Positions 2-29,918 of a stretch of DNA of 43,676 bases are shown here, piece after piece. Made by a program: the position numbers and the translations under genes. The stretch spans positions 1-43,676 of the forward strand of contig CAJQHR010000057.1 of the NCBI GenBank assembly GCA_905478225.1, read 5' to 3'. Within the stretch, counting starts at the first letter, position 1; each line of letters starts with the position of its first letter. The notes beneath the pieces are model-generated. The model saw only the letters and a program-made list of their open reading frames with translations, ran no database searches and was not told the origin of the DNA. The stretch comes from an uncultured Crocinitomix sp. (lineage in GTDB: Bacteria; Bacteroidota; Bacteroidia; Flavobacteriales_D; Crocinitomicaceae).

Positions 2-370
2 CATATTGGTCATGGTGCAATTTTTCATGGGGGAACGATTGGAGAAAATTGTTTAATCGGAATGAACAGCGTTATCATGGATGATGTTGTTATTGAGGAT
101 GAATGTATCATTGGGGCTTTGTGTTTTGTTCCGGCTAAAATGAGTATCCCAAAACGGAGTTTAGTGGCTGGCAATCCAGCAAAAATCATCAAACAAGTCT
201 CAGATGAAATGCTAAAATGGAAGTCATTAGGCACTGCACTGTATCAAGCATTACCCGGTGAATGTAAATCAACCTTAAAAGAGGTAGCGCCTTTACGCGA
301 AGTTGAAGCAAATCGTCCTTCGCAAGAATCTATGTATTCAACATGGGAAGCTATTAAATCGAAAAAATAG
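2..370 (+). CDS. paaY: PaaY-like gamma-carbonic-anhydrase/hexapeptide-repeat protein, 3' part only
   Basis: Only the C-terminal ~122 residues are in the window; the frame is open to the left edge, so the start lies upstream. The visible part carries left-handed beta-helix hexapeptide turns (IGHGAIFHGG, IGENCLIGMNSVIMDDVVI, GNPAKIIK) with the His-x2-His...His-Gly pattern of trimeric metal-binding gamma-class carbonic anhydrase-like proteins. After the helix the sequence continues with WKSLGTALYQ and an EVAPLREVE segment. That C-terminal extension is what I remember from E. coli PaaY (WKKQGTHEYQ, QVEPLREIE) and not from CaiE-less generic family members. PaaY is a thioesterase-like helper of phenylacetate degradation, acting on dead-end CoA intermediates in the cytoplasm. 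Whether other paa genes lie upstream cannot be seen. The family is certain; the paaY assignment is likely. Confidence 0.8.
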   Translation, partial: HIGHGAIFHGGTIGENCLIGMNSVIMDDVVIEDECIIGALCFVPAKMSIPKRSLVAGNPAKIIKQVSDEMLKWKSLGTALYQALPGECKSTLKEVAPLREVEANRPSQESMYSTWEAIKSKK

Positions 371-4611: not shown

Positions 4612-6930
4612 CTATTCACGCGAGTTCGGAAAATTTACCGTTGCATTACTCGAAGGGTAGTAGTTCGTTTCAAAAATTGTGGTTAAACCTTCTTTAATTG
4701 TGATGGTAAAGTGAGAAAGCCCTTTTTGCTTGCAAAGTTTTCGGATTAATTTTTTTGGTGTCATTAAGTAAAATTCTTGCGGCTTCAAGGGGTTAAGCGT
4801 TGTTTTTGATTCGTAAATGGTCGCAGTCATGCCTTTCATATTTTCAGCCGAAACTATTAGATTGACCTCTGTAGTTTTTAGCCGATCGCTGACCAGTGTT
4901 GCAACAAGATTATTGCCATCCATTTCGCATGAGGCTATAATTGGTTTGTAATGGTCTTGAACTTCTGAATAAGCTTCTTTTTCGTTTCCATAATAATCAA
5001 TGACGCTCCATGATGGTCCAGGCCAGCAGTCGTTAAGTTGCCAGAACAGTGTGCCCATGCAATGCGGCGTTTGAATGCGGTGCTGCCTAATTGCATAGCC
5101 ATATGCATGTGCTTGCACCAATTGCGTTAGTTCAACCCATTCTTCAAAATCAACTTCCTCATATGCGTATTTGATTACGTTCTTCTGAATAATTCCATTG
5201 CCGATATAGCTTTTTTGGCGATTTTTCATGACTTCAGAAACCAAGTTTAGGTCGGCCTCTTTAATTACGTTGGCTAAAGTAGCATAGTTAGGAAAGGATT
5301 GATAGCCGTATTCTGCGATAAAGCGTCCTACATTTTTGGCAAAGTTCTCAATTGGTTCTTTGCCGTGCCAAACGCCCCAATAATGCATGGACGAATGGTT
5401 GAAATTCTCAGGTTTCCCCCAATTGCTTAACGGAGAAGTGGGCACATAATCAATGTTCGGGCTCAATTTTTCTAAGGTTTGCGGAATCAATTCATGAAAA
5501 ATGCTCGTGTATGTATTCCAAATTTCGGTTTCGTCCTCCTTAGAATAACCGTACTGCTTTTGCCAGCCCCAATTTTCCCAAGCGACTTCAATTTCATTAT
5601 TCCCACACCATAAGGCAATGCAAGGGTGGTTGCGCAGACGTTTTACATTGTATTCTACCTCCGCGGTAATATTGTCAATAAAAGACGGATCATTGGGATA
5701 CATGGAGTTGGCGAACATAAAATCTTGCCAAACTAATATGCCATGTTCATCACAAAGGTCATAGAAGTAATCACTTTCATAGATTCCGCCTCCCCAAACT
5801 CGAATCATATTGATATTAGCATCCACAGCTTGTTGAATCAGTTTTTCATAACGCGCAGAATCTACTCTCGGCAGGAATAAGTCTTGCGGAATATAGTTAG
5901 CTCCCTTGGCGTAAAATGGTTTGCCGTTTACTTTAAAGTAGAAGGAAGTGCCTATTGAATCGGGTCCATTAACCAGCTCTATTTCTCGAAAAGCAGCCTT
6001 TAAGTTTCCCTTTGCTAATAGTGTGAAGGCAGTCGAGATCATAAAATCACCTTCCCATTTCCATTGATTCCCATAATCTTTTGGATTCCAGTATGCAAAG
6101 GTGTTTAGTTGAACTGATTGTTTAATTAAGTTTGTCCCTTTAGTCAGTTGAATTTTGTAGTTTTTATCTACGATTCTTAAGTCATAACTTCCCGCTTGAT
6201 CGAGATCATACTCGATTTCAAAATCAAAATCAATCTGCCATTCATTACTTGAAACTTTTGCTGTGGTGTATGTAATGTCATTCACTTTTAAAGTATTCCA
6301 AGTTTTCAAGTAAACGGGGCGCCAAATTCCTGACGTGACAAAACGAGGCCCCCAATCCCAACCAAAATGATAGGCTGCTTTCCGTGTATAGGGAGACACT
6401 TTTAAATAAACCGTTTCGTTAGCTGCGGGCAATTCGTAAGGACTATTCTCTACATTTTTCTTATTCAGATTTAAGGGGGAGTGAAATATGACTGTTAATT
6501 CGTTGTTCCCTAGGTTTAAGTGTGGTTTCAATTCTACTGTCCATTCACGAAACATATTATCTGTGACTAGAATTTCTATGCCATTGAGTATAATAGTGGT
6601 GTAGGTATCTAATCCTTCAAAAACCAATTCTACATGTGCTTGTTGCAGCAATTTTTCATCCGCAATAATTGTTGTGCTATATTCCCAGTCTTCAAACTCA
6701 ATCCATCTTTGCGTAATTTCGTTATTCCCTTCATAAGGGTCTTTGATTATTCCATTATCGAATAAATCCAAATGCACAACGCCAGGAACAGTCGCCGGAT
6801 TCCATTGATCAGCGGTCACATTTTTAAATCTCCAACCTGTATCTAGCGGGATAATATTCTCACTGTATCCAGTTGAACTAAATACTACGTTGAATAGAGC
6901 TAAGAGTAGTAAAGGGTGAAATTTAAACAT
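4612..6930 (-). CDS. Beta-mannosidase, glycoside hydrolase family 2
   Basis: The 772-residue product has an N-terminal signal peptide (~residues 1-23), so it acts in the periplasm or outside. The order is a GH2 sugar-binding domain (PLDTGWRFKN...WIEFEDWEYS, residues ~28-190), an immunoglobulin-like sandwich (~195-310) and a TIM barrel (~325-640) with IRVWGGGIYESDYFYDLCDE. The acid/base Glu is E446 in WCGNNEIEVAW and the nucleophile is E540 in AEYGYQSFP. A second Trp-rich stretch (TLFWQLNDCWPGPSWS) is typical of beta-mannosidases. At 772 residues it is slightly shorter than common relatives (~800-880), mostly in the C-terminal beta domains. It would remove beta-linked mannose, such as the core Man-beta-1,4-GlcNAc of N-glycans, and fits the hexosaminidase and glycosylasparaginase genes nearby, though it is in a separate transcription unit. 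Confidence 0.92.
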   Translation of the reverse strand: MFKFHPLLLLALFNVVFSSTGYSENIIPLDTGWRFKNVTADQWNPATVPGVVHLDLFDNGIIKDPYEGNNEITQRWIEFEDWEYSTTIIADEKLLQQAHVELVFEGLDTYTTIILNGIEILVTDNMFREWTVELKPHLNLGNNELTVIFHSPLNLNKKNVENSPYELPAANETVYLKVSPYTRKAAYHFGWDWGPRFVTSGIWRPVYLKTWNTLKVNDITYTTAKVSSNEWQIDFDFEIEYDLDQAGSYDLRIVDKNYKIQLTKGTNLIKQSVQLNTFAYWNPKDYGNQWKWEGDFMISTAFTLLAKGNLKAAFREIELVNGPDSIGTSFYFKVNGKPFYAKGANYIPQDLFLPRVDSARYEKLIQQAVDANINMIRVWGGGIYESDYFYDLCDEHGILVWQDFMFANSMYPNDPSFIDNITAEVEYNVKRLRNHPCIALWCGNNEIEVAWENWGWQKQYGYSKEDETEIWNTYTSIFHELIPQTLEKLSPNIDYVPTSPLSNWGKPENFNHSSMHYWGVWHGKEPIENFAKNVGRFIAEYGYQSFPNYATLANVIKEADLNLVSEVMKNRQKSYIGNGIIQKNVIKYAYEEVDFEEWVELTQLVQAHAYGYAIRQHRIQTPHCMGTLFWQLNDCWPGPSWSVIDYYGNEKEAYSEVQDHYKPIIASCEMDGNNLVATLVSDRLKTTEVNLIVSAENMKGMTATIYESKTTLNPLKPQEFYLMTPKKLIRKLCKQKGLSHFTITIKEGLTTIFETNYYPSSNATVNFPNSRE

Positions 6931-21202: not shown

Positions 21203-21595
21203 TTAATCCAGCACTCCCAAACTATCCAACTCTTCTAAAGAAACAGTTGGCGGTAAAATTCCAGCGTCTAATTTATAAATCATATAATTCCCTGTGATGA
21301 GCGCTTTTTCTTTTGAACTAAATCCTGAATTACCTTGTACGGCTGGTATGTGGGGTTGATTGATGAGAAGGGCTTCACCGTTCATGATTTTATAACCCCA
21401 ATCGTTTTTGCCTTTTTCAAAGGTCACAGCCGTGTATGGTGAGTCAGAAGAGGTGTCGAAGCAAAATGTTGAGCTGTCCACTGGGTTTTCGACTATTAAT
21501 TCATCCGTTTCTGAACTTGTGTTGTTGCTGACTTCATTTGTATCGCAAGCCAATAGAATTAGCCCAAATCCAAACAGCATAATTAGTGATTTCAT
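21203..21595 (-). CDS. DUF4907-like lipoprotein
   Basis: The 130-residue product has a lipoprotein signal (MKSLIMLFGFGLILLAC, lipid Cys at residue 17). The mature C-terminal ~80 residues (WGYKIMNGEALLINQPHIPA, then GNSGFSSKEKALITGNYMI and GILPPTVSLEELDSLGV) resemble the small Bacteroidota family annotated DUF4907, as far as I recall its QP.IPa..G..gF pattern and P.v...eL end. The ATG overlaps the stop of the upstream kelch gene by one base (TAATG), so it is the third gene of a kelch-kelch-DUF4907 operon. Function is unknown. Confidence 0.65.
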   Translation of the reverse strand: MKSLIMLFGFGLILLACDTNEVSNNTSSETDELIVENPVDSSTFCFDTSSDSPYTAVTFEKGKNDWGYKIMNGEALLINQPHIPAVQGNSGFSSKEKALITGNYMIYKLDAGILPPTVSLEELDSLGVLD

Positions 21596-22806
21596 TAACG
21601 TACAATAATTTGTTGAACGCCAAATGAATCAGTTCCGCTTGCCAATGAAATAAAGTAATTACCAGCAGGTAAATCATTTACTAGATTCACCGTCATTTGA
21701 TTTGCCGAGCTGTTGATAATTTGAAATGAGTTTGAAACATCTGTTCCGGCGGTATTATAAATCTGCAGGGTGCTAATGTCAATATTCCCTTCGCTTGAAA
21801 TGATGAATTCAGAACTTACAGGATTTGGATAGATATTCAATTGTAACGGTTGTCCTAATTCTTCCATAGATAATACCCGATCGTATTCGTAAAAATCATC
21901 ATGATATGTTCCGTCATAGCCCAGTCCAACAAAAATACGATTGCTAACGGCGATCGCAGAAGCTTGAACTCTCGCTCCGCCCATATAATCTGCTCTTTGA
22001 GTCCAAACGTTACCGAAGTAGTTGTACTCCCAAACGTCGTCTCTATATTCAAAGTCATTATCCTCTCCAAGCATTATAAATGCCGAGGGGAAAACACCAC
22101 AACCCACAGCGCCAATTCTCGGAGTGCCTGGGAAATCAGATTTTTGTGTCCATTCGTCGGTAGAGGGATTATATTGCCAAAAATCATCCATGTAACCTTT
22201 ATTCCCACGGCCAGTTCCAATATAGCCTTGACCGCCCATTGCAAATCCAACTGCTTCCTTTCTGTGGTCACCTTCAAAGTCATTTAATTCTGTCCAAGAA
22301 TTTGATTCAGGATTATAGCTGTAAAAATCATCTTTTAATCCGCCTTCGTCCTGCCCTGTCCCTACATAAGCGATATCTCCAATGGAGAAAGCAATTGCTC
22401 CAGTTCTGGCAGAACCTTCAAAATCTGCCATTTGGGTCCAAACTTCTGTCTCAGGGTCGTATCGCCATAAATCTTTGAGCAAGGCAGATGAGCCTGCTCC
22501 TAAACCAATAAACCCATAACCGCCTGCACTAAAACCAACAGCAGAACCTCTTTCTAATCCTGAGCCCCCGTCACCGCCTAATGCAGTTTCCGCGTCCCAA
22601 TCATCTTGCTCCAAATCGTAGGAATACATTTTGCGCTTAAAATCTGTCAGGTCAACACCGCTTAGCACAAATGCTTCTCCATTTAATTCAAAACTTGCGC
22701 ATGCCGCTCTCGGAGGACCATTCACAGAATCGCGTTTAATCCAAAAATCTTGCCCATAACTTGTTGTGAGGACAATTGTTGCTGCTAATAATACTGCTAA
22801 TTTCAT
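21595..22806 (-). CDS. Secreted kelch-repeat protein with T9SS tail (copy 2)
   Basis: The 403-residue product has a signal peptide (~residues 1-18). About six kelch-type repeats follow, each with the pattern aR.gAvgF...gYiGlG......DlW.Y.P.td.WtqkadF.G (for example YRYDPETEVWTQ-type units and DDFWQYNPSTDEWTQKSDFP). These should form a beta-propeller of about residues 25-310. The end (~320-403) is a T9SS type A tail (LNIYPNPVSSEFIIS ... LPAGNYFISL). Its ATG overlaps the upstream kelch gene's stop by 4 bases (ATGA). It is a paralogue of that gene. It is probably displayed on the cell surface; the ligand is unknown. Confidence 0.88.
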   Translation of the reverse strand: MKLAVLLAATIVLTTSYGQDFWIKRDSVNGPPRAACASFELNGEAFVLSGVDLTDFKRKMYSYDLEQDDWDAETALGGDGGSGLERGSAVGFSAGGYGFIGLGAGSSALLKDLWRYDPETEVWTQMADFEGSARTGAIAFSIGDIAYVGTGQDEGGLKDDFYSYNPESNSWTELNDFEGDHRKEAVGFAMGGQGYIGTGRGNKGYMDDFWQYNPSTDEWTQKSDFPGTPRIGAVGCGVFPSAFIMLGEDNDFEYRDDVWEYNYFGNVWTQRADYMGGARVQASAIAVSNRIFVGLGYDGTYHDDFYEYDRVLSMEELGQPLQLNIYPNPVSSEFIISSEGNIDISTLQIYNTAGTDVSNSFQIINSSANQMTVNLVNDLPAGNYFISLASGTDSFGVQQIIVR

Positions 22807-24026
22807 CTTAACGCAATTTTTTTAGTTCCTACAAATTGTTCGTTCTTATTGAAAAGTGCTAATTGATAAAGGCCGTTAACCAAACCGTCACGACTGATTG
22901 TGAATTGTGAGTTATTGAAAAAATCTTTTTTAACAACTTGGCCTTGCATGTTTATTACCCAGTATTCCCCCTGGTTTAATTTCTCAGGGAGTCTTACTGT
23001 AGCTTGATCTTTTACAGGGTTCGGGAAAACATCAAATTCCATGCTTGTTTCATCCGATAATGAGAGAGGCCCTAATGGCGCGTATTCGTAAAACGATTGT
23101 TTTTTACCAGAAATCTCTTTACCTAAACCAGCATAGCCCTTGTCTCCGATCGAAAAAGCAATTGCGTTATTACGTCCACCACCCGGAAAAGGAGCTCTTA
23201 ATGTCCATGCTTCTGTATAATAATTATAATCCCAAAGTTCGTCTTTTAGGCCACCGTCTGATCCGAAAACAACAAACCCTTTAATACCTATAGAGAATGA
23301 ACTAGCGCGTGCCCTTTCAGTTCCTGGGAAATCGTCCTTGGTTTCCCATGTATTCGTTGCAGGATCATATTCGTGTATATCCTTTCGATAAACATCTTGG
23401 TCAGTTCCCATTCCAACATATGCTTTATCTTCTACTACAAAACTAATGAGTTGGTAACGGTCACCTCCTGGAAATGGCGTGCGTTCGGTCCATTCGTCTG
23501 TCTCCGGATTATACTCCCATACTTCATTAATGTATGCGTTTGAACCAATTTTGCCACAAGCAACATATCCTTTATCTAAAGCTGCAAAAGAAGTCGCTTG
23601 ATAGATGCCGGTATCTCCGCCGCCAGGATAGTCAGCAATTGAAGACCATGAATTGCCCAATGGATCATATTCCCAAAAATCTTTCAGCTTTTCACCTAAA
23701 TCTCCATCATCTAATGTAAAACCTGTTCCTATATATCCCTTACTTCCGACTGCAAAACCAACAGCGTTTCGTCGTTCGGATGCTGGCATTGATGCTTTTT
23801 GCGTCCATATGTCTGAGAGTGGGTCATATTGCCAAAGATCATTATGTGTTATTTCTGCCGTATCAACACCACAGCCAACATAGCCAAATTCTCCAATTGA
23901 AAAAGCAACTGCCTTTTCGCGTTTTAATCCATCAAAAGAGGCCTTTTTGTCCCAAATGTTTTCATCTTGTGACCATCCTGAAATAAGGAATAGGATTAGT
24001 GTGGCCGTTATTACAACTTTATACAT
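22803..24026 (-). CDS. Secreted kelch-repeat protein with T9SS tail (copy 1)
   Basis: The 407-residue product has a signal peptide (residues 1-19, MYKVVITATLILFLISGWS). Six kelch repeats follow with the same consensus as the downstream copy (REKAVAFSIGEFGYVGCGVD ... NDLWQYDPLSDIWTQKASMP). The T9SS tail begins at ~325 (MEFDVFPNPVKDQATVRLPE) and ends VGTKKIALR. The repeats predict a beta-propeller with conserved Trp and Gly-Gly positions. It is the first gene of the kelch-kelch-DUF4907 operon, with ATGA overlap into the second. There is no catalytic motif, so binding or scaffold roles are more likely than an enzyme. Confidence 0.88.
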   Translation of the reverse strand: MYKVVITATLILFLISGWSQDENIWDKKASFDGLKREKAVAFSIGEFGYVGCGVDTAEITHNDLWQYDPLSDIWTQKASMPASERRNAVGFAVGSKGYIGTGFTLDDGDLGEKLKDFWEYDPLGNSWSSIADYPGGGDTGIYQATSFAALDKGYVACGKIGSNAYINEVWEYNPETDEWTERTPFPGGDRYQLISFVVEDKAYVGMGTDQDVYRKDIHEYDPATNTWETKDDFPGTERARASSFSIGIKGFVVFGSDGGLKDELWDYNYYTEAWTLRAPFPGGGRNNAIAFSIGDKGYAGLGKEISGKKQSFYEYAPLGPLSLSDETSMEFDVFPNPVKDQATVRLPEKLNQGEYWVINMQGQVVKKDFFNNSQFTISRDGLVNGLYQLALFNKNEQFVGTKKIALR

Positions 24027-24298: not shown

Positions 24299-25759
24299 AT
24301 GCACACAAGAGATCTTGAACCAAAAATAATCTGGAATCATTTTGAAGACATCAATGCTGTACCTCGTCCTTCTAAGCACGAAGAACGAATCATTCAGTTT
24401 ATGCTTGATTTCGGTAATAATTTAGGATTAGAGACGTTGCGTGATACGATTGGCAATGTGATTATTAAAAAACCGGCGAGCAAAGGATACGAGAATAAAA
24501 AAACGGTGATCCTGCAGTCGCATATTGACATGGTTCACCAAAAAAATTCGGCTACAATTTTTGACTTTGATAAAGAAGGAATTCGATCTGTTATAGATGG
24601 TGAATGGGTGAAAGCGGAGGGAACTACATTAGGTGCGGATAATGGAATGGGAGTTGCAGCAGCAATGTCACTTTTATCATCAACCACTATTAATCATCCG
24701 GCGCTAGAAGCACTTTTTACAATTGACGAAGAAACCGGAATGACTGGGGCAAAGGAATTGGATGGTTCCAAATTAACTGGCGAAATTCTCTTTAATTTAG
24801 ATACCGAAGATGATGATGAATTTTCGGTAGGTTGCGCTGGCGGTATTGATACCAATACGATTTATACCTATACAGAAGAGGATGTACCTTCAACTTACGT
24901 AGCATTTTCAATTGAAATTAAAGGCTTGAAAGGCGGTCATTCAGGAATGGATATTCACTTAGGGCGAGGAAATTCAAACTTATGGATGAATCGGATCATA
25001 TACCACTTGTCTACAATGGCAGATGTTCGCATTTGTGAATTGGAGGGTGGCAGTTTACGGAATGCAATTCCAAGAGAAAGTGTTGGCACATTAGCCTGCC
25101 CCGTCAATGCAATTGATGATTTGAAGTCAGCATTTAACAAAATTTCTGAAATTATTCTTAGCGAGTTTTCAAAAACCGAGCTAAATGCTTCTATTGAGTT
25201 TAAGCCATCAACAGCTTCACCTGCAAAAATGATTAGTTTGGCGGATCAAAAAAAGGCGATTGCAACAATCTATACCACACCAAATGGAGTATGGGCTATG
25301 AGCGAGAAAATTGAAGGGTTGGTTGAAACTTCTTCTTCTTTGGCCAAAGTTATATTTAAAAATGGAGCGTTTCGAACAAAATCACTTCAGCGCAGTATGA
25401 TTGAGTCGGGTAAGCACGACATTGCGAATGCTTTAAAATTGACCTATGAATTATTGGGAGCAAAAGTAAAGCAGTGTGGCGATTATCCGGGTTGGGCTCC
25501 AAATCCTGATTCGCCTATCTTACAAATACTAAAAGCGAAATACATTCAGTTATTTAATGATTCCCCAAAAATTGCAGCCTGTCATGCTGGTTTAGAATGT
25601 GGTATTTTGAGTAAACATTTACCGAATTGTGATATGATTTCTTTTGGCCCTACCATTCGAAACCCCCATTCTCCTGATGAAAAAGTGAATATTAGGTCTG
25701 TTCAAAAATTTTGGTCGTTTTTAGTAGAGGTCTTAAAAGAGATTCCTTCTAAAAACTAG
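24299..25759 (+). CDS. pepD: Aminoacyl-histidine dipeptidase (PepD, M20 family)
   Basis: The 486-residue cytoplasmic metallopeptidase begins LEPKIIWNHFEDINAVPRPS, as PepD proteins do. Zinc ligands are seen at QSHIDMVHQ (His), GADNGMGVAA (bridging Asp), IDEETGMTGAKEL (catalytic Glu plus ligand), LDTEDDDEFSVGCAGG (Asp) and near the end GPTIRNPHSPDE (His). The lid domain spans ~200-390 with KGGHSGMDIHLGRGN. It cleaves Xaa-His and other dipeptides. It ends two bases before a TTG-started lipoprotein gene, so it may head the four-gene operon running to 27855. Confidence 0.95.
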   Translation: MHTRDLEPKIIWNHFEDINAVPRPSKHEERIIQFMLDFGNNLGLETLRDTIGNVIIKKPASKGYENKKTVILQSHIDMVHQKNSATIFDFDKEGIRSVIDGEWVKAEGTTLGADNGMGVAAAMSLLSSTTINHPALEALFTIDEETGMTGAKELDGSKLTGEILFNLDTEDDDEFSVGCAGGIDTNTIYTYTEEDVPSTYVAFSIEIKGLKGGHSGMDIHLGRGNSNLWMNRIIYHLSTMADVRICELEGGSLRNAIPRESVGTLACPVNAIDDLKSAFNKISEIILSEFSKTELNASIEFKPSTASPAKMISLADQKKAIATIYTTPNGVWAMSEKIEGLVETSSSLAKVIFKNGAFRTKSLQRSMIESGKHDIANALKLTYELLGAKVKQCGDYPGWAPNPDSPILQILKAKYIQLFNDSPKIAACHAGLECGILSKHLPNCDMISFGPTIRNPHSPDEKVNIRSVQKFWSFLVEVLKEIPSKN

Positions 25760-25761
25760 TT

Positions 25762-26904
25762 TTGAAATCCATTTCTTTCATTTTTAGCGTTCTATTTATC
25801 TTAACAGGCTGTTCGAATGAGTATGCTCATGAGGATGATGTATGCGCTTGCTATCGCAAATCAATGTCGGTGGAGGGATTTGATTTTGATGAAACCCTGC
25901 TTTATTTGGAAACTGGATTTATTGAAATTGGGATAATCGGCGGTTCAACAGGTCAAGATTATTTGAATGAAATGATTGATTTTGTGCAAACGGAGGAGAA
26001 AGAAGCAGCGAATTTTACTGATGAATTTATAATGTATCTGAAAAGTTTAGATGACGCTGAAGTCGATTTTTTGTGTTTTATTGAAGAATTTGAGAATCGT
26101 GATAATTCGAAATTGAAAAATTATAGAAATGCTTTTACTTCAAATCCAAAGACAAGACAGCAAAATATTGAAAAAATTGTCAATTCCACGCAATCTTTAG
26201 TTGGAGCAGAAGGATTCAAGCATCCATATTATAAAGCCTTTTATTTCAAGTATTATTATGAAATGACTGGGATTAAAGAAACATATTTTGATTATTCCTT
26301 ATTGCCCTTAAAGAATGAAGTGCCAATAAACGCACCAAGTAACGATAGAGAAAGAGATGTTCTTGACATAGTTGCTGACGCTGCTGACGCGCTTACAGTT
26401 AATGGTGATGCAATTCAAATAGGCGAATTATATGCTTTGGTATTAAATTTTTACCAAGCTAATTTAAATGGAAATGATAATGACGCAGAAGCACCATTTT
26501 ATGTAAAGATCGACAGTCTTATTTGTTTGGAGAAGATCGCTGAACTTGAAATTAATCTAACAAAAGATTCGACTGATCGTATGGCAAAAAGTGACTTAAA
26601 AAAATGGCAAACTAAATTTGATCTTGTCAGACGGTTTGAGAGTGGTTTTTGCATGGAGATTAGCACAAGTGCTCATATTAAACTAAAAAATGACGGTGGA
26701 ACAACTTATGGTATGTATATTGAAATTCTGAATATCATCAAGAGAGTTGTGAACGAGTTAAGAGTGGAGAAGTGCGAGGAAATGGGGTGGCCAGATTATT
26801 TTGAATTGGATGATAAGAATGTAGATGATCAGGAATATATTAAAATGCTTCGTATTTTAGTTCCAGAAAGAATTATAGAATCCAGAATTGAACGTGATAA
26901 ATAG
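25762..26904 (+). CDS. Lipoprotein with an ExbD/TolR-like C-terminal domain
   Basis: The 380-residue product begins at a TTG, giving a lipoprotein signal (FIFSVLFILTGC, lipid Cys at residue 17). Residues ~25-190 are helical with no family I know. From ~196 the sequence follows the periplasmic part of the long ExbD variant of Flavobacteriales as I remember it: RERDVLDIVADAADALTVNG, then GELYALVLNFYQANLNGND, the cysteine-containing DSLICLEKIAELE, KNDGGTTYGMYIEILN, VNELRVEKCEEMGWPDYF and RILVPERIIES. True ExbD has an N-terminal membrane helix with an essential Asp that couples to ExbB; here a lipid anchor and an extra domain replace it. No exbB or tonB lies nearby. It is followed by a lipoprotein and a barrel protein with overlapping frames. 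The ExbD relationship rests on memory of the family and needs a profile search. Confidence 0.6.
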   Translation: MKSISFIFSVLFILTGCSNEYAHEDDVCACYRKSMSVEGFDFDETLLYLETGFIEIGIIGGSTGQDYLNEMIDFVQTEEKEAANFTDEFIMYLKSLDDAEVDFLCFIEEFENRDNSKLKNYRNAFTSNPKTRQQNIEKIVNSTQSLVGAEGFKHPYYKAFYFKYYYEMTGIKETYFDYSLLPLKNEVPINAPSNDRERDVLDIVADAADALTVNGDAIQIGELYALVLNFYQANLNGNDNDAEAPFYVKIDSLICLEKIAELEINLTKDSTDRMAKSDLKKWQTKFDLVRRFESGFCMEISTSAHIKLKNDGGTTYGMYIEILNIIKRVVNELRVEKCEEMGWPDYFELDDKNVDDQEYIKMLRILVPERIIESRIERDK

Positions 26905-27283
26905 ATATTCCTCATATACGCGTATTGCCTTAATACTAATCTTACTCAGTGCCTGCAATCCGGGTAATTTAACACACGAGCGATTCATTCAAAATAACAC
27001 CGGAGAGGATACTATAATCGTTATTAATCCTGATTTTGATGACGCTGTTGATACAATTATTCCTGGCGTTATAGCATTAATATATTCTTTTGAAATATTA
27101 GACACGAAGCAAGAGTTTGAGCCTTGCAAATGGATTGGCGATACATTAATCGTTAAAAATTTGGATGGTGACCTACTCACGCGGTCGGTAAAAGAAGAAG
27201 ATTTTTGGACCTATGCCATTCAAGGGGAATTTGAGCGCGTTCAACGTTGCACTTTTGTGGTAATTTCTACCGATTTTGAATGA
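26888..27283 (+). CDS. Hypothetical lipoprotein
   Basis: The 131-residue product starts at TTG 26888 or GTG 26894, both inside the end of the previous gene. The signal has a lipobox (RIALILILLSAC, lipid Cys at residue 23 from the TTG). The mature part is beta-rich and acidic and I recognise no domain. Its TGA overlaps the ATG of the following barrel gene (ATGA), so the three genes 25762-27855 are translationally coupled. A role together with the ExbD-like lipoprotein and the barrel protein is inferred from position only. Confidence 0.65.
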   Translation: MNVINRYSSYTRIALILILLSACNPGNLTHERFIQNNTGEDTIIVINPDFDDAVDTIIPGVIALIYSFEILDTKQEFEPCKWIGDTLIVKNLDGDLLTRSVKEEDFWTYAIQGEFERVQRCTFVVISTDFE

Positions 27284-27855
27284 GGAAACTCTGCTTCATA
27301 TTGTTTTTTATAGCTCCATTTGTTGGGCGCACTCAATTTACTGTTGGTATTAAAATAGGCGGCTTAGCCTTTCATCAACAAGAAGTAAATCCGAATTATT
27401 ACAGCTGGAGTATTGACAAAAAAGGGCGTTGGGTCGGATATTTAGGTGTTTCACTCACGGCCGGTTATCAATTTAACCGTTATTTGGGTGTAAAAGTGAT
27501 TCAAACTATAATGCCATACGACTGCGCCGGTAAATTTGCTGGAATTACGCATTTAGGCATTGATTTACATGACCGAATTGTGGGTTTTAAGAATGAAAAA
27601 CACCGCTTTAGTGCAACATTCGGTCCCATGTTCTATTACCGCAAAAATTGGAATGAGGTTCCAACATATTATATAGATGAAGGGTTTATGAAAACGGCCA
27701 AGAATAAAGCCTGGGAACGCAAATTCATTTGGTACGGCGGTCAAATTCAATATGACTATTATTACAACGAAAAACAAGCGGTTTCAACTAATTTTTTACC
27801 CGGTTTCCCTTATATATATACGTTTATGACGGGGGTGCAGACGGAAGTGGAGTAA
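27280..27855 (+). CDS. Putative outer-membrane beta-barrel protein
   Basis: The 191-residue product has a signal peptide (~residues 1-18, LCFILFFIAPFVGRTQ). It has alternating aromatic strands such as FTVGIKIGGLAFHQQ, GYLGVSLTAGYQFNRYLGVK, HRFSATFGPMFYYRKNW and GGQIQYDYYYNEKQ. It looks like an eight-stranded barrel of the porin-family/OmpA-like size class, although it ends in QTEVE and not in an aromatic residue. The ATG overlaps the preceding lipoprotein stop by 4 bases. Function is unknown. Confidence 0.6.
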   Translation: MRKLCFILFFIAPFVGRTQFTVGIKIGGLAFHQQEVNPNYYSWSIDKKGRWVGYLGVSLTAGYQFNRYLGVKVIQTIMPYDCAGKFAGITHLGIDLHDRIVGFKNEKHRFSATFGPMFYYRKNWNEVPTYYIDEGFMKTAKNKAWERKFIWYGGQIQYDYYYNEKQAVSTNFLPGFPYIYTFMTGVQTEVE

Positions 27856-28001: not shown

Positions 28002-29918
28002 CTAATTAATTACAAACGTTTTGCCCATTGGTCCAATTTGAATTTCATCATGATCTGCAAGCCAACGCAGGTTTTCAATAATAATAGCTCTTGAATGATT
28101 GGGTAGTGCAGAAATCAACTCGCTAATTATAATTTTGTCATGATCATCTATTAAATCAATAGCCGCTTTCTTAATGATTTTCCGCAAATTTTTTGCCTCG
28201 CTTTTATCAAATAAACAGCTGCTGCATTTACCGCAGGATTCTGTTTCTGTTTCTGTTTCTCCAAAGTATTGAAGCAACAGCTCACTCTTACACCTATCTG
28301 AGGTAAGGAAATGAATCATGGCTTCCAATTTGTTTTCGGCAATCTTTTTACGATCCAAGTAAAATTTTGGAGAAATTGATAGGTTGTTGTCGGCTAATCG
28401 CTCTGTGACATAGGTAACAAATGGGAGATCGGATTTTGGAATATAATCTACCAATTCAAGTTGCACCATATATTCCAGCTTTGCTCTTATTTCAGCTATA
28501 GTTAATCCTGTTTTACTTGAAATTTTAAATTCGTTGATTCGGACATATTCATCAAAAATCCCCATCTCAGTGCGCAGTATAAATTGGAGGAGTTTATTTA
28601 ATGTTTTGTCTTTAACTTGGTAACTATACAAATCCTTATTGTTTGCTAAAACTTTCAACTGACTCGGCTGCTTATAATTATCACTTAGCTTAATGAATTC
28701 GCAGAGTTCAAGAAATTTTAAGGAGTTGTAGACTACCAATATATTAAAGTCATATTTGTCTGCAAATTGAGCAATATTTATCGGGAATCGTTCTTCTAAG
28801 CCCGAACCAATTGCTAACTGCAGGTGACTTCCTAAAGCATTGTAAATGCGTTTAATGGTTTCAATTGGAGGATATTTTAATGCAACGTTTTCCTTCAGCT
28901 TTTGAATGTCATCTGGTTCATAAAACAATTGGGCTGTTGCAGCTTTTCCATCTCTCCCAGCTCGACCAGCTTCTTGAAAATAAGCCTCAATACTTGCGGG
29001 GATGTCATGATGGAGTACAAAACGCACATCTGCTTTGTCAATCCCCATTCCAAAAGCATTTGTAGCCACCATTATTTTAGTTTCACCTTTGGTCCAGCTC
29101 TTTTGTTTGTTGAGGCGCTCTTCATAGTCTAATCCTGCGTGGTAATAGTCAACGGAAAAATTCTGGTCATTTAATTTTATGAACAGTTCTTTTACTTTTC
29201 GCCGAGTCGAACAATATATAATTCCAGAATCGCTGATTGAGTTTAATCTACCTAATGCGGTAATTATTCGGTTGTATTTGTTATTGGTGCCAAAGGTATT
29301 GTAGACTAAATTTTTGCGCTCGAATGATTTTTGAATGACATTCAATTCCTTAAACTCCAGTTTTTCTTGAATGTCAATCACGACATCAGGCGTTGCTGTT
29401 GCTGTTAATGCCAGAATAGGGACATTGGGTTGCAGTTTTCGAATATCAGTAATTGAAAGATAACTAGGTCTAAAATCATATCCCCATTGCGATATGCAGT
29501 GCGCCTCATCTACCGCAATTAAATTGATCTTCATTTTTGCAAATCGAACTTGAAATAAGCGGGTTTTTAATCTTTCAGGAGAGACGTATAAAAATTTTAT
29601 GGGTCCATAAATAGCATTGTCAAGCGTGATGTCAATTTGTTTTTTTGACATGCTAGAATTAATGGCTACTGCATTTATTCCTCTTGATTTTAAGTTGGTC
29701 ACTTGGTCTTCCATTAATGCAATGAGCGGCGAAATCACCAAGCAAACACCGTCTTTCATCATCCCTGGGACCTGATAACATAGAGATTTACCCCCGCCCG
29801 TAGGAAGCAAGGCAAGACAATCCTTTCCTTCTAGAGACGCGTTTATTATTTCCAGTTGTTTAGCCCTGAAAGCATCAAAATTCCAATAGGCTTTTAATAT
29901 TTCTTGAGGAGTTTGCAC
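28002..29918 (-). CDS. RecQ-family ATP-dependent DNA helicase (short form without HRDC)
   Basis: The 638-residue product has Walker A LPTGGGKSLCYQVPG, DEAH box AVDEAHCISQWGYDFRPSY, LTATATPDV, and motifs V-VI NAFGMGIDKADVRFVLHHDI and FQEAGRAGRDG. A zinc-binding segment follows much later (CKSELLLQYF...CGKCSSC, ~residues 560-590), after a winged-helix region. There is no HRDC or HTH extension, and the end GPMGKTFVIN is typical of the shorter Bacteroidota RecQ paralogue. It shares about the same helicase core as the gene at 15786-17891 but differs in its C-terminal half, so the two are probably old paralogues with distinct roles. Confidence 0.92.
   Translation of the reverse strand: MQTPQEILKAYWNFDAFRAKQLEIINASLEGKDCLALLPTGGGKSLCYQVPGMMKDGVCLVISPLIALMEDQVTNLKSRGINAVAINSSMSKKQIDITLDNAIYGPIKFLYVSPERLKTRLFQVRFAKMKINLIAVDEAHCISQWGYDFRPSYLSITDIRKLQPNVPILALTATATPDVVIDIQEKLEFKELNVIQKSFERKNLVYNTFGTNNKYNRIITALGRLNSISDSGIIYCSTRRKVKELFIKLNDQNFSVDYYHAGLDYEERLNKQKSWTKGETKIMVATNAFGMGIDKADVRFVLHHDIPASIEAYFQEAGRAGRDGKAATAQLFYEPDDIQKLKENVALKYPPIETIKRIYNALGSHLQLAIGSGLEERFPINIAQFADKYDFNILVVYNSLKFLELCEFIKLSDNYKQPSQLKVLANNKDLYSYQVKDKTLNKLLQFILRTEMGIFDEYVRINEFKISSKTGLTIAEIRAKLEYMVQLELVDYIPKSDLPFVTYVTERLADNNLSISPKFYLDRKKIAENKLEAMIHFLTSDRCKSELLLQYFGETETETESCGKCSSCLFDKSEAKNLRKIIKKAAIDLIDDHDKIIISELISALPNHSRAIIIENLRWLADHDEIQIGPMGKTFVIN

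Follow-up and report, generated by a model that had tools for sequence, protein, structure and literature searches.

ExbD is part of the proton-driven motor for nutrient uptake and is viewed as working inside the ExbB ring; ExbD2 is an ordinary membrane-anchored ExbD. The likeness between ExbD2 of Xanthomonas campestris and Flavobacterium psychrophilum and the protein described here is that ExbD2 is an additional ExbD, not needed for iron uptake, the difference being that its gene lies in tandem within the tonB-exbB-exbD cluster (from the accessible part of PMC3551730). The TPH-vWA proteins also join part of the ExbD/TolR plan to another periplasmic domain, but in them it is the transpore helix that is predicted to remain, the reverse of the arrangement in our protein, whilst the lipoproteins Pal and PorE are tied to Tol/Ton-like systems but carry an OmpA-like peptidoglycan-binding domain and not an ExbD domain (both comparisons from the available sections of PMC12204202). 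A Fibrobacter paper containing the terms ‘ExbD domains’ and ‘lipoprotein’ was considered as a precedent and set aside, as its accessible portion concerns ordinary TonB/ExbB/ExbD genes (PMC6851124). Within the open literature, a scope which leaves most subscription-journal papers and preprints outside, no description of a helix-less ExbD domain was found.

The window, by which we mean the whole 43,676-nucleotide stretch of DNA analysed, is an entire contig (C57) of a 3.52 Mb genome. On its forward strand an open-reading frame at 25762..26904 (TTG start at 25762, stop codon ending at 26904) encodes a 380-residue lipoprotein, recognised by its ExbD match and lipobox, which combines a helical N-domain with an ExbD periplasmic domain without the membrane helix. 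The signal peptide and lipobox (25762..25812) were located from the sequence and by motif scan, the lipobox reading ...ILTGC with Cys17 encoded at 25810-25812, and lipidation is predicted. The N-domain follows at residues 18-179 (25813..26298), as delimited by profile searches and helical in the models, then the ExbD domain at residues 181-378 (26302..26895), as delimited by alignment to the resident ExbD and by the tree, with a C-terminal PERIIES segment at residues 368-374 (26863..26883). Measured against the long Flavobacteriales variant of ExbD/TolR (PF02472), the periplasmic domain is homologous over ~200 residues, but the transmembrane helix and the SMADIAF motif with its proton-relay Asp are absent, the gene is not beside exbB, and a lipobox and helical N-domain are present instead. 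The window protein is an ExbD-domain protein, not an ExbD.

The C-domain of this lipoprotein is a copy of the ExbD periplasmic half from which the motor helix has gone. Its residues 181-378 and residues 41-238 of the resident long ExbD form an ungapped alignment at 48% identity (67% positives, 178 bits, E 7e-59 in a single comparison), much more than chance would give, the match opening at ‘LP’, immediately C-terminal of the ExbD membrane helix, and the C-end of the alignment coinciding in both proteins. The ExbD helix motif was not found in the lipoprotein, and its hydropathy after residue 30 peaks at 1.12, against 19-residue peaks of 1.93-2.39 in 25 ExbDs. The first-pass annotation, made from the sequence alone, had proposed both that the C-terminal half follows the periplasmic part of the long ExbD and that a lipid-anchored head replaces the proton-coupling helix, and the ungapped alignment over 198 residues and the lipobox at Cys17 without a helix motif bear it out on both counts. 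Differences between the lipoprotein gene and exbD at codon positions 1/2/3 (0.449/0.283/0.616) fit selection on the protein. The same annotation had also pointed to PF02472, and here the outcome was mixed: neither the whole protein nor its C-half matched any Pfam family at E ≤ 10, and NCBIfam also gave none, yet this silence is weak evidence since PF02472 covers only residues 4-86 of the resident long ExbD, which passes the cut-off there.

A PF02472 search of the window genome returned three ExbDs. One, of 136 aa, sits between an ExbB-like gene and a gene that we call TonB-like by layout, the TonB_C search not listing it; the genes for the other two, a long ExbD of 238 aa and a short one of 150 aa, follow an ExbB-like gene and a 157-aa gene on contig C3. 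The genome has eight TonB_C matches, none of them on the contig carrying the long-ExbD operon, and no TonB gene was seen on reading that contig. Among the relatives, four genomes were observed to have a second long ExbD (loci L146:3588-5689, L006:53-2217, L147:3651-5806 and L144:2704-3420): in G004, G006 and G016 it lies near the first, G016 also having a second short ExbD, and in G001 it is on a separate contig, next to the 340-aa and 176-aa genes that accompany it in G004 too.

Motor-less ExbD domains recur in relatives of the window genome. Of 200 family genomes, 96 gave a match to a profile of the C-domain, for the most part plain ExbDs, together with frames of unusual length; from the latter, and from a few hits of wider searches, we assembled a set of 29 exported proteins of 25 genomes that carry a motor-less ExbD, all fully read, which are a sample and not a census. 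The ExbD helix motif is absent from all 29, and their 19-residue hydropathy beyond residue 30 peaks at 1.45. A lipobox was found in 22 of the 29 with a simple pattern at residues 11-26, a count which omits matches at residues 32-33 in G084 and G553 and a candidate in G599 (FNTSC) that misfits the pattern; we read the remaining seven as carrying a signal-like N-end. By our own grouping the set falls into five classes and one further lipoprotein (L038). Class A, the N-domain plus ExbD domain, has 11 members including the window protein (the others being L047, L048, L050, L056, L057, L164, L165, L166, L167 and L169); class B comprises four proteins of 150-173 aa (L105, L109, L110 and L111) that are barely more than a lipid anchor and an ExbD domain; class C has a short head of ~60 residues before a long ExbD domain (eight members); class D is ~350 aa long without a lipobox (L037, L115 and L163); and class E, with two members, has a different head. 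Four candidates were dropped: L053 has an internal stop, the end of L168 is missing, and L059 and L130 are 426-aa proteins with the N-domain. In the class D loci (L037:2175-3221, L115:1984-3042 and L163:1334-2419) the long-ExbD C-half is preceded by a conserved N-half, for which the idea of a second, short-ExbD-like domain found no support.

Class A also occurs under five other family codes of the same taxonomic class (G416, G599, G457, G053 and G553); the profile spans both domains in the first four, whilst its match in G553 (L169) is confined to positions 150-303, the N-domain there having been assigned by reading. Two class A copies from different families, L056:1501-2412 in G084 and L164:2509-3405 in G416, share 76% identity over 298 residues, pointing to a probable, recent transfer between lineages. 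In profile-profile comparison (hhalign), the C-domains of five class A proteins, the window protein excluded, matched 16 long ExbDs with a probability of 99.0 (E 2.2e-18), and classes C and D matched ExbD at 99.1 and 97.7; classes B and E were placed by profile matches, by PF02472 in L110 and by reading. PF02472 itself was over its cut-off in four of 25 members scanned (L050, L056, L110 and L164), L114, L159, L160 and L162 having been left out of that scan. Ten proteins searched against defence and phage libraries gave weak matches only, with no family common to two, no further ExbD rows were confirmed in a search of viral contigs, and a first contig scan with the window protein as query found no relatives.

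A phylogeny against genuine ExbDs, which the first-pass annotation had named as a check, groups the window domain with those of its own genus. In a tree of 49 C-domains its sister group is formed by the first ExbDs from six of eight genus members (support 96/85, on a short branch of 0.041), with the first ExbDs of G005 and G007 falling outside, and the other class A domains are placed elsewhere. A single origin of the class A fusion was rejected: the six domains as one clade had an AU p of 0.00067, and after removal of four long rows, both the five class A domains together (p 1.5e-7) and the window domain with that of G033 (p 0.0009) were also rejected. Several rows have long branches, and the window's fork is unstarred in the smaller tree. 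The trees support a derivation of the window domain from the exbD of its own genus, separately from the other members. Eighteen of the 29 domains, those with their own ExbD in a panel of 44, were compared with that panel: the resident ExbD was the best of 44 for five of them and among the top three for nine, including the window domain, but lay outside the top three for the other nine and ranked 43rd of 44 for G084, so that ‘mimic of the resident ExbD’ is not a general description. In G067 the class C domain shares 41% identity with the ExbD of its own genome and 24-32% with the other class C domains compared. Taken together, the trees, the panel and G067 indicate more than one event in which either a resident exbD was taken up or exbD sequence overwrote the domain.

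The first-pass annotation had also looked to structure prediction as a check, and an ExbD-like fold was seen in the model of a relative. The AF2 model of the window protein was good only in parts of the N-domain and mostly below pLDDT 50 over the ExbD part, where it is uninformative as no other alignment row covered the C-half. For the class A relative L125, which is the same protein as L050, a model built from five rows (mean pLDDT 71.3) has a helical N-domain at 19-175 and a C-domain of strands and helices. The top six PDB matches of this model in Foldseek are five ExbD chains (8p9r twice, 8pek, 8vgc and 8vgd) and TolR (5by4), with probabilities of 0.99-1.00 and E-values of 0.010-0.13, none reaching 0.001; four of the five ExbD chains come from TonB or D-box complexes. 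In VIA-align, seven ExbD/TolR entries lead (Z 7.7 to 5.6) ahead of the next, unrelated entry at 5.3, although according to the tool's notes Z scores up to 7.7 are in a range common without kinship. In Escherichia coli, according to the accessible part of PMC10907165, the periplasmic domains of ExbD dimerise, and ExbD dimers capture the D-box of TonB on an edge strand (residues 130-134). The matches of the L125 model include 8pek, a dimer entry. VIA-align equates residues 197..302 of the model with 61..135 of 8vgc, and from these alignment ends the C-end of the model (296-302, WEIIEKT) would lie opposite the D-box-recruiting strand of E. coli. The window counterpart of WEIIEKT is PERIIES. An ExbD-like tail of the form P-x-x-[IVLF]-x-[ED] is found in 18 of the 29 motor-less proteins (3.3 expected on shuffling), the pattern having been picked after inspection of the sequences; 11 lack it, and for three of the 18 matches (G080_E, G030_D and G057), situated as they are in proline-rich ends, the strand may be a different one.

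The lipoprotein gene stands in a run of forward-strand genes. A 486-aa pepD-type aminoacyl-histidine dipeptidase (24299..25759; TIGR01893, 549.3 bits vs. a cut-off of 343.75) ends 2 bases before its start codon, so the run starts at pepD. Downstream, a 131-aa lipoprotein gene (26888..27283), whose product has no family over cut-off in Pfam or NCBIfam, overlaps the 380-aa lipoprotein gene by 17 bases from its first possible start, and is in turn overlapped through ATGA by an open-reading frame for a 191-aa exported protein (27280..27855), which appears barrel-like from its sequence together with a match to OmpA that is very weak (E 0.033, 13.5 bits vs. a cut-off of 277). These are the two neighbours that the first-pass annotation had named; it had left pepD unmentioned. 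A convergent open-reading frame (28002..29918, reverse strand), the product of which we take from its sequence to be a RecQ-like helicase, closes the run; no exbB is beside the lipoprotein gene, its neighbours being pepD, the two envelope genes and the recQ-like gene. Upstream of pepD, at 21595-24026 on the reverse strand, we observed two adjoining, similar exported proteins of ~400 aa, kelch-like by eye, and a similar pair adjoins pepD in G002 and G005.

Overlap of these genes on one strand would favour the idea, put forward in the first-pass annotation, that the 380-aa lipoprotein, the 131-aa lipoprotein and the barrel-like protein form a single envelope system; sister genomes make it very improbable. 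With the whole window protein as query, 45 of 59 genomes of relatives (the window's own included) gave a match, most of them ExbDs, and G004 and G006 additionally gave matches to the N-domain only. In G001, G002, G004, G005 and G006, too, pepD comes before the small lipoprotein gene or before the gene upstream of it. In G002 and G005 no counterpart of the 380-aa lipoprotein was found between pepD and the small lipoprotein gene, leaving the downstream pair without it; in G004 and G006 its place, in the order pepD, X, 124/131 aa, 191 aa, is taken by a 175-aa lipoprotein consisting of the N-domain; and in G001 there is a ~110-base remnant of the 3′ end (local score 109, best of 200 shuffles 28). 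As this remnant scores 109 with the window lipoprotein gene and 94 with the exbD of the window genome, too close on ~110 bases, we regard it as a relic of the lipoprotein gene chiefly for its position between pepD and the small lipoprotein gene. The barrel gene is present in five of eight other genus genomes searched (the G005 copy having an internal stop, and one of the three genomes without it being only 67% complete), and is followed by the recQ-like gene also in G002, G004, G005 and G006. Relatives of the window lipoprotein with the same architecture sit in other gene neighbourhoods, and no contig other than the window's was seen to have exactly this three-gene layout with the ExbD part included. 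The simplest history would be one full-length insertion in the ancestor of the window genome (G000), G001, G004 and G006, after which the ExbD half was lost in one branch and most of the gene in another. The downstream pair is accordingly no fixed partner. The 380-aa lipoprotein gene, cut back or mostly gone at the site in three sister species, is dispensable there, and its companions in the run are probably mere bystanders.

Our best explanation, to which we give a probability of roughly 0.4, is that the 380-aa lipoprotein is an envelope-anchored protein that binds ExbD's periplasmic partner and is unable to drive the motor; of the roles offered by the first-pass annotation, we thereby favour that of a repurposed ExbD, which may bind ExbD's putative partner. 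The protein would be a lipid-anchored chimera in which a helical exported domain has been joined to the periplasmic domain of the resident ExbD, cut after the proton-conducting helix, and as it is without the helix that sits inside ExbB, it would have no proton drive. The lipid would hold it at a membrane of the envelope, and it would retain the surface by which ExbD pairs with another ExbD and, through strand recruitment, captures the extended peptide of a transducer of the TonB type. With that surface it would compete with, or replace, the motor's ExbD at the partner, tuning or blocking energy coupling; on this inference the drive is all that the motor-less domain has lost, the edge that binds the ligand being retained. 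The CSNEYAHEDD stretch at Cys17 could, we presume, be a surface-export signal, which would place the protein away from ExbD's partners. The ungapped match to the resident ExbD, the dimerisation of ExbD periplasmic domains (PMC10907165, as far as accessible) with the match to 8pek, and the place of the resident ExbD in the top three of 44 for the window domain and eight of the 17 others would also suit a motor-less subunit that enters resident ExbD dimers through its periplasmic domain, as a regulatory or dominant-negative partner and not a binder of the TonB-type transducer. This we find doubtful, as nine of 18 domains do not track their resident ExbD and an outer-membrane lipid anchor would lie far from it. 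It is unlikely, too, that the ExbD part is a passenger, pieces of exbD occasionally fusing to lipoprotein genes and drifting, with the function resting in the N-domain whilst the ExbD part is tolerated or decays: the reading frame of the window domain stays open for 198 residues at an identity of only 48%, with far fewer differences at codon position 2 than at position 3 (0.283 vs. 0.616), and the four class B proteins have no other domain to do the work. What speaks for a passenger is that the N-domain-only orthologue in G004/G006 is still under selection (dN/dS 0.17), that most of the gene has gone in G001, and that three N-domain proteins (L049, L051 and L054) stop directly after the post-helix linker.

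The recurrence of natural ExbD domains without the motor helix, lipid-tied or free in the periplasm, implies that the periplasmic domain is useful in its own right, and such domains offer a handle on ExbD's binding partners and on regulation of the Ton motor by competition; we know of no regulator that acts on the Ton motor in this way. Extending this reading further, Bacteroidota might time and again place a copy of the periplasmic half of the resident ExbD on the head of a lipoprotein or secreted protein, as motor-less mimics that would seize the transducer to switch off, redirect or protect TonB-type coupling, for example against TonB-dependent phages or bacteriocins. We consider this broader proposal quite improbable as it stands; if true, the mimics would add to the Ton motor an accessory level of control with fast turnover.

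The N-domain is by profile searches a family of its own, with an hhalign probability of 0.3 in a control against ExbD. Its profile matches in 30 of 200 family genomes, some weakly, and in 42 of 399 order genomes, with at most eight candidates scored per genome. No fold was assigned to it from the L125 model, the PDB list being filled by the C-domain. It also occurs alone: L126, L127 and L128 carry, at ~5600-6600, N-domain-only lipoproteins which end after an ExbD-like linker (IPKK or MPKK), each with a ~650-aa protein encoded upstream, and in L126 and L128 the gene is preceded by that of a ~130-aa lipoprotein. A second branch of N-domain lipoproteins, of ~200 aa, was observed around 1400-3500 in L058, L063, L064, L065 and L067 with a repeated gene pairing. 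The gene after these lipoproteins encodes what we take to be a relative of the N-end of translation factor IF-2, and in L058, L064 and L065 it is followed by a presumably DUF4268-like gene.
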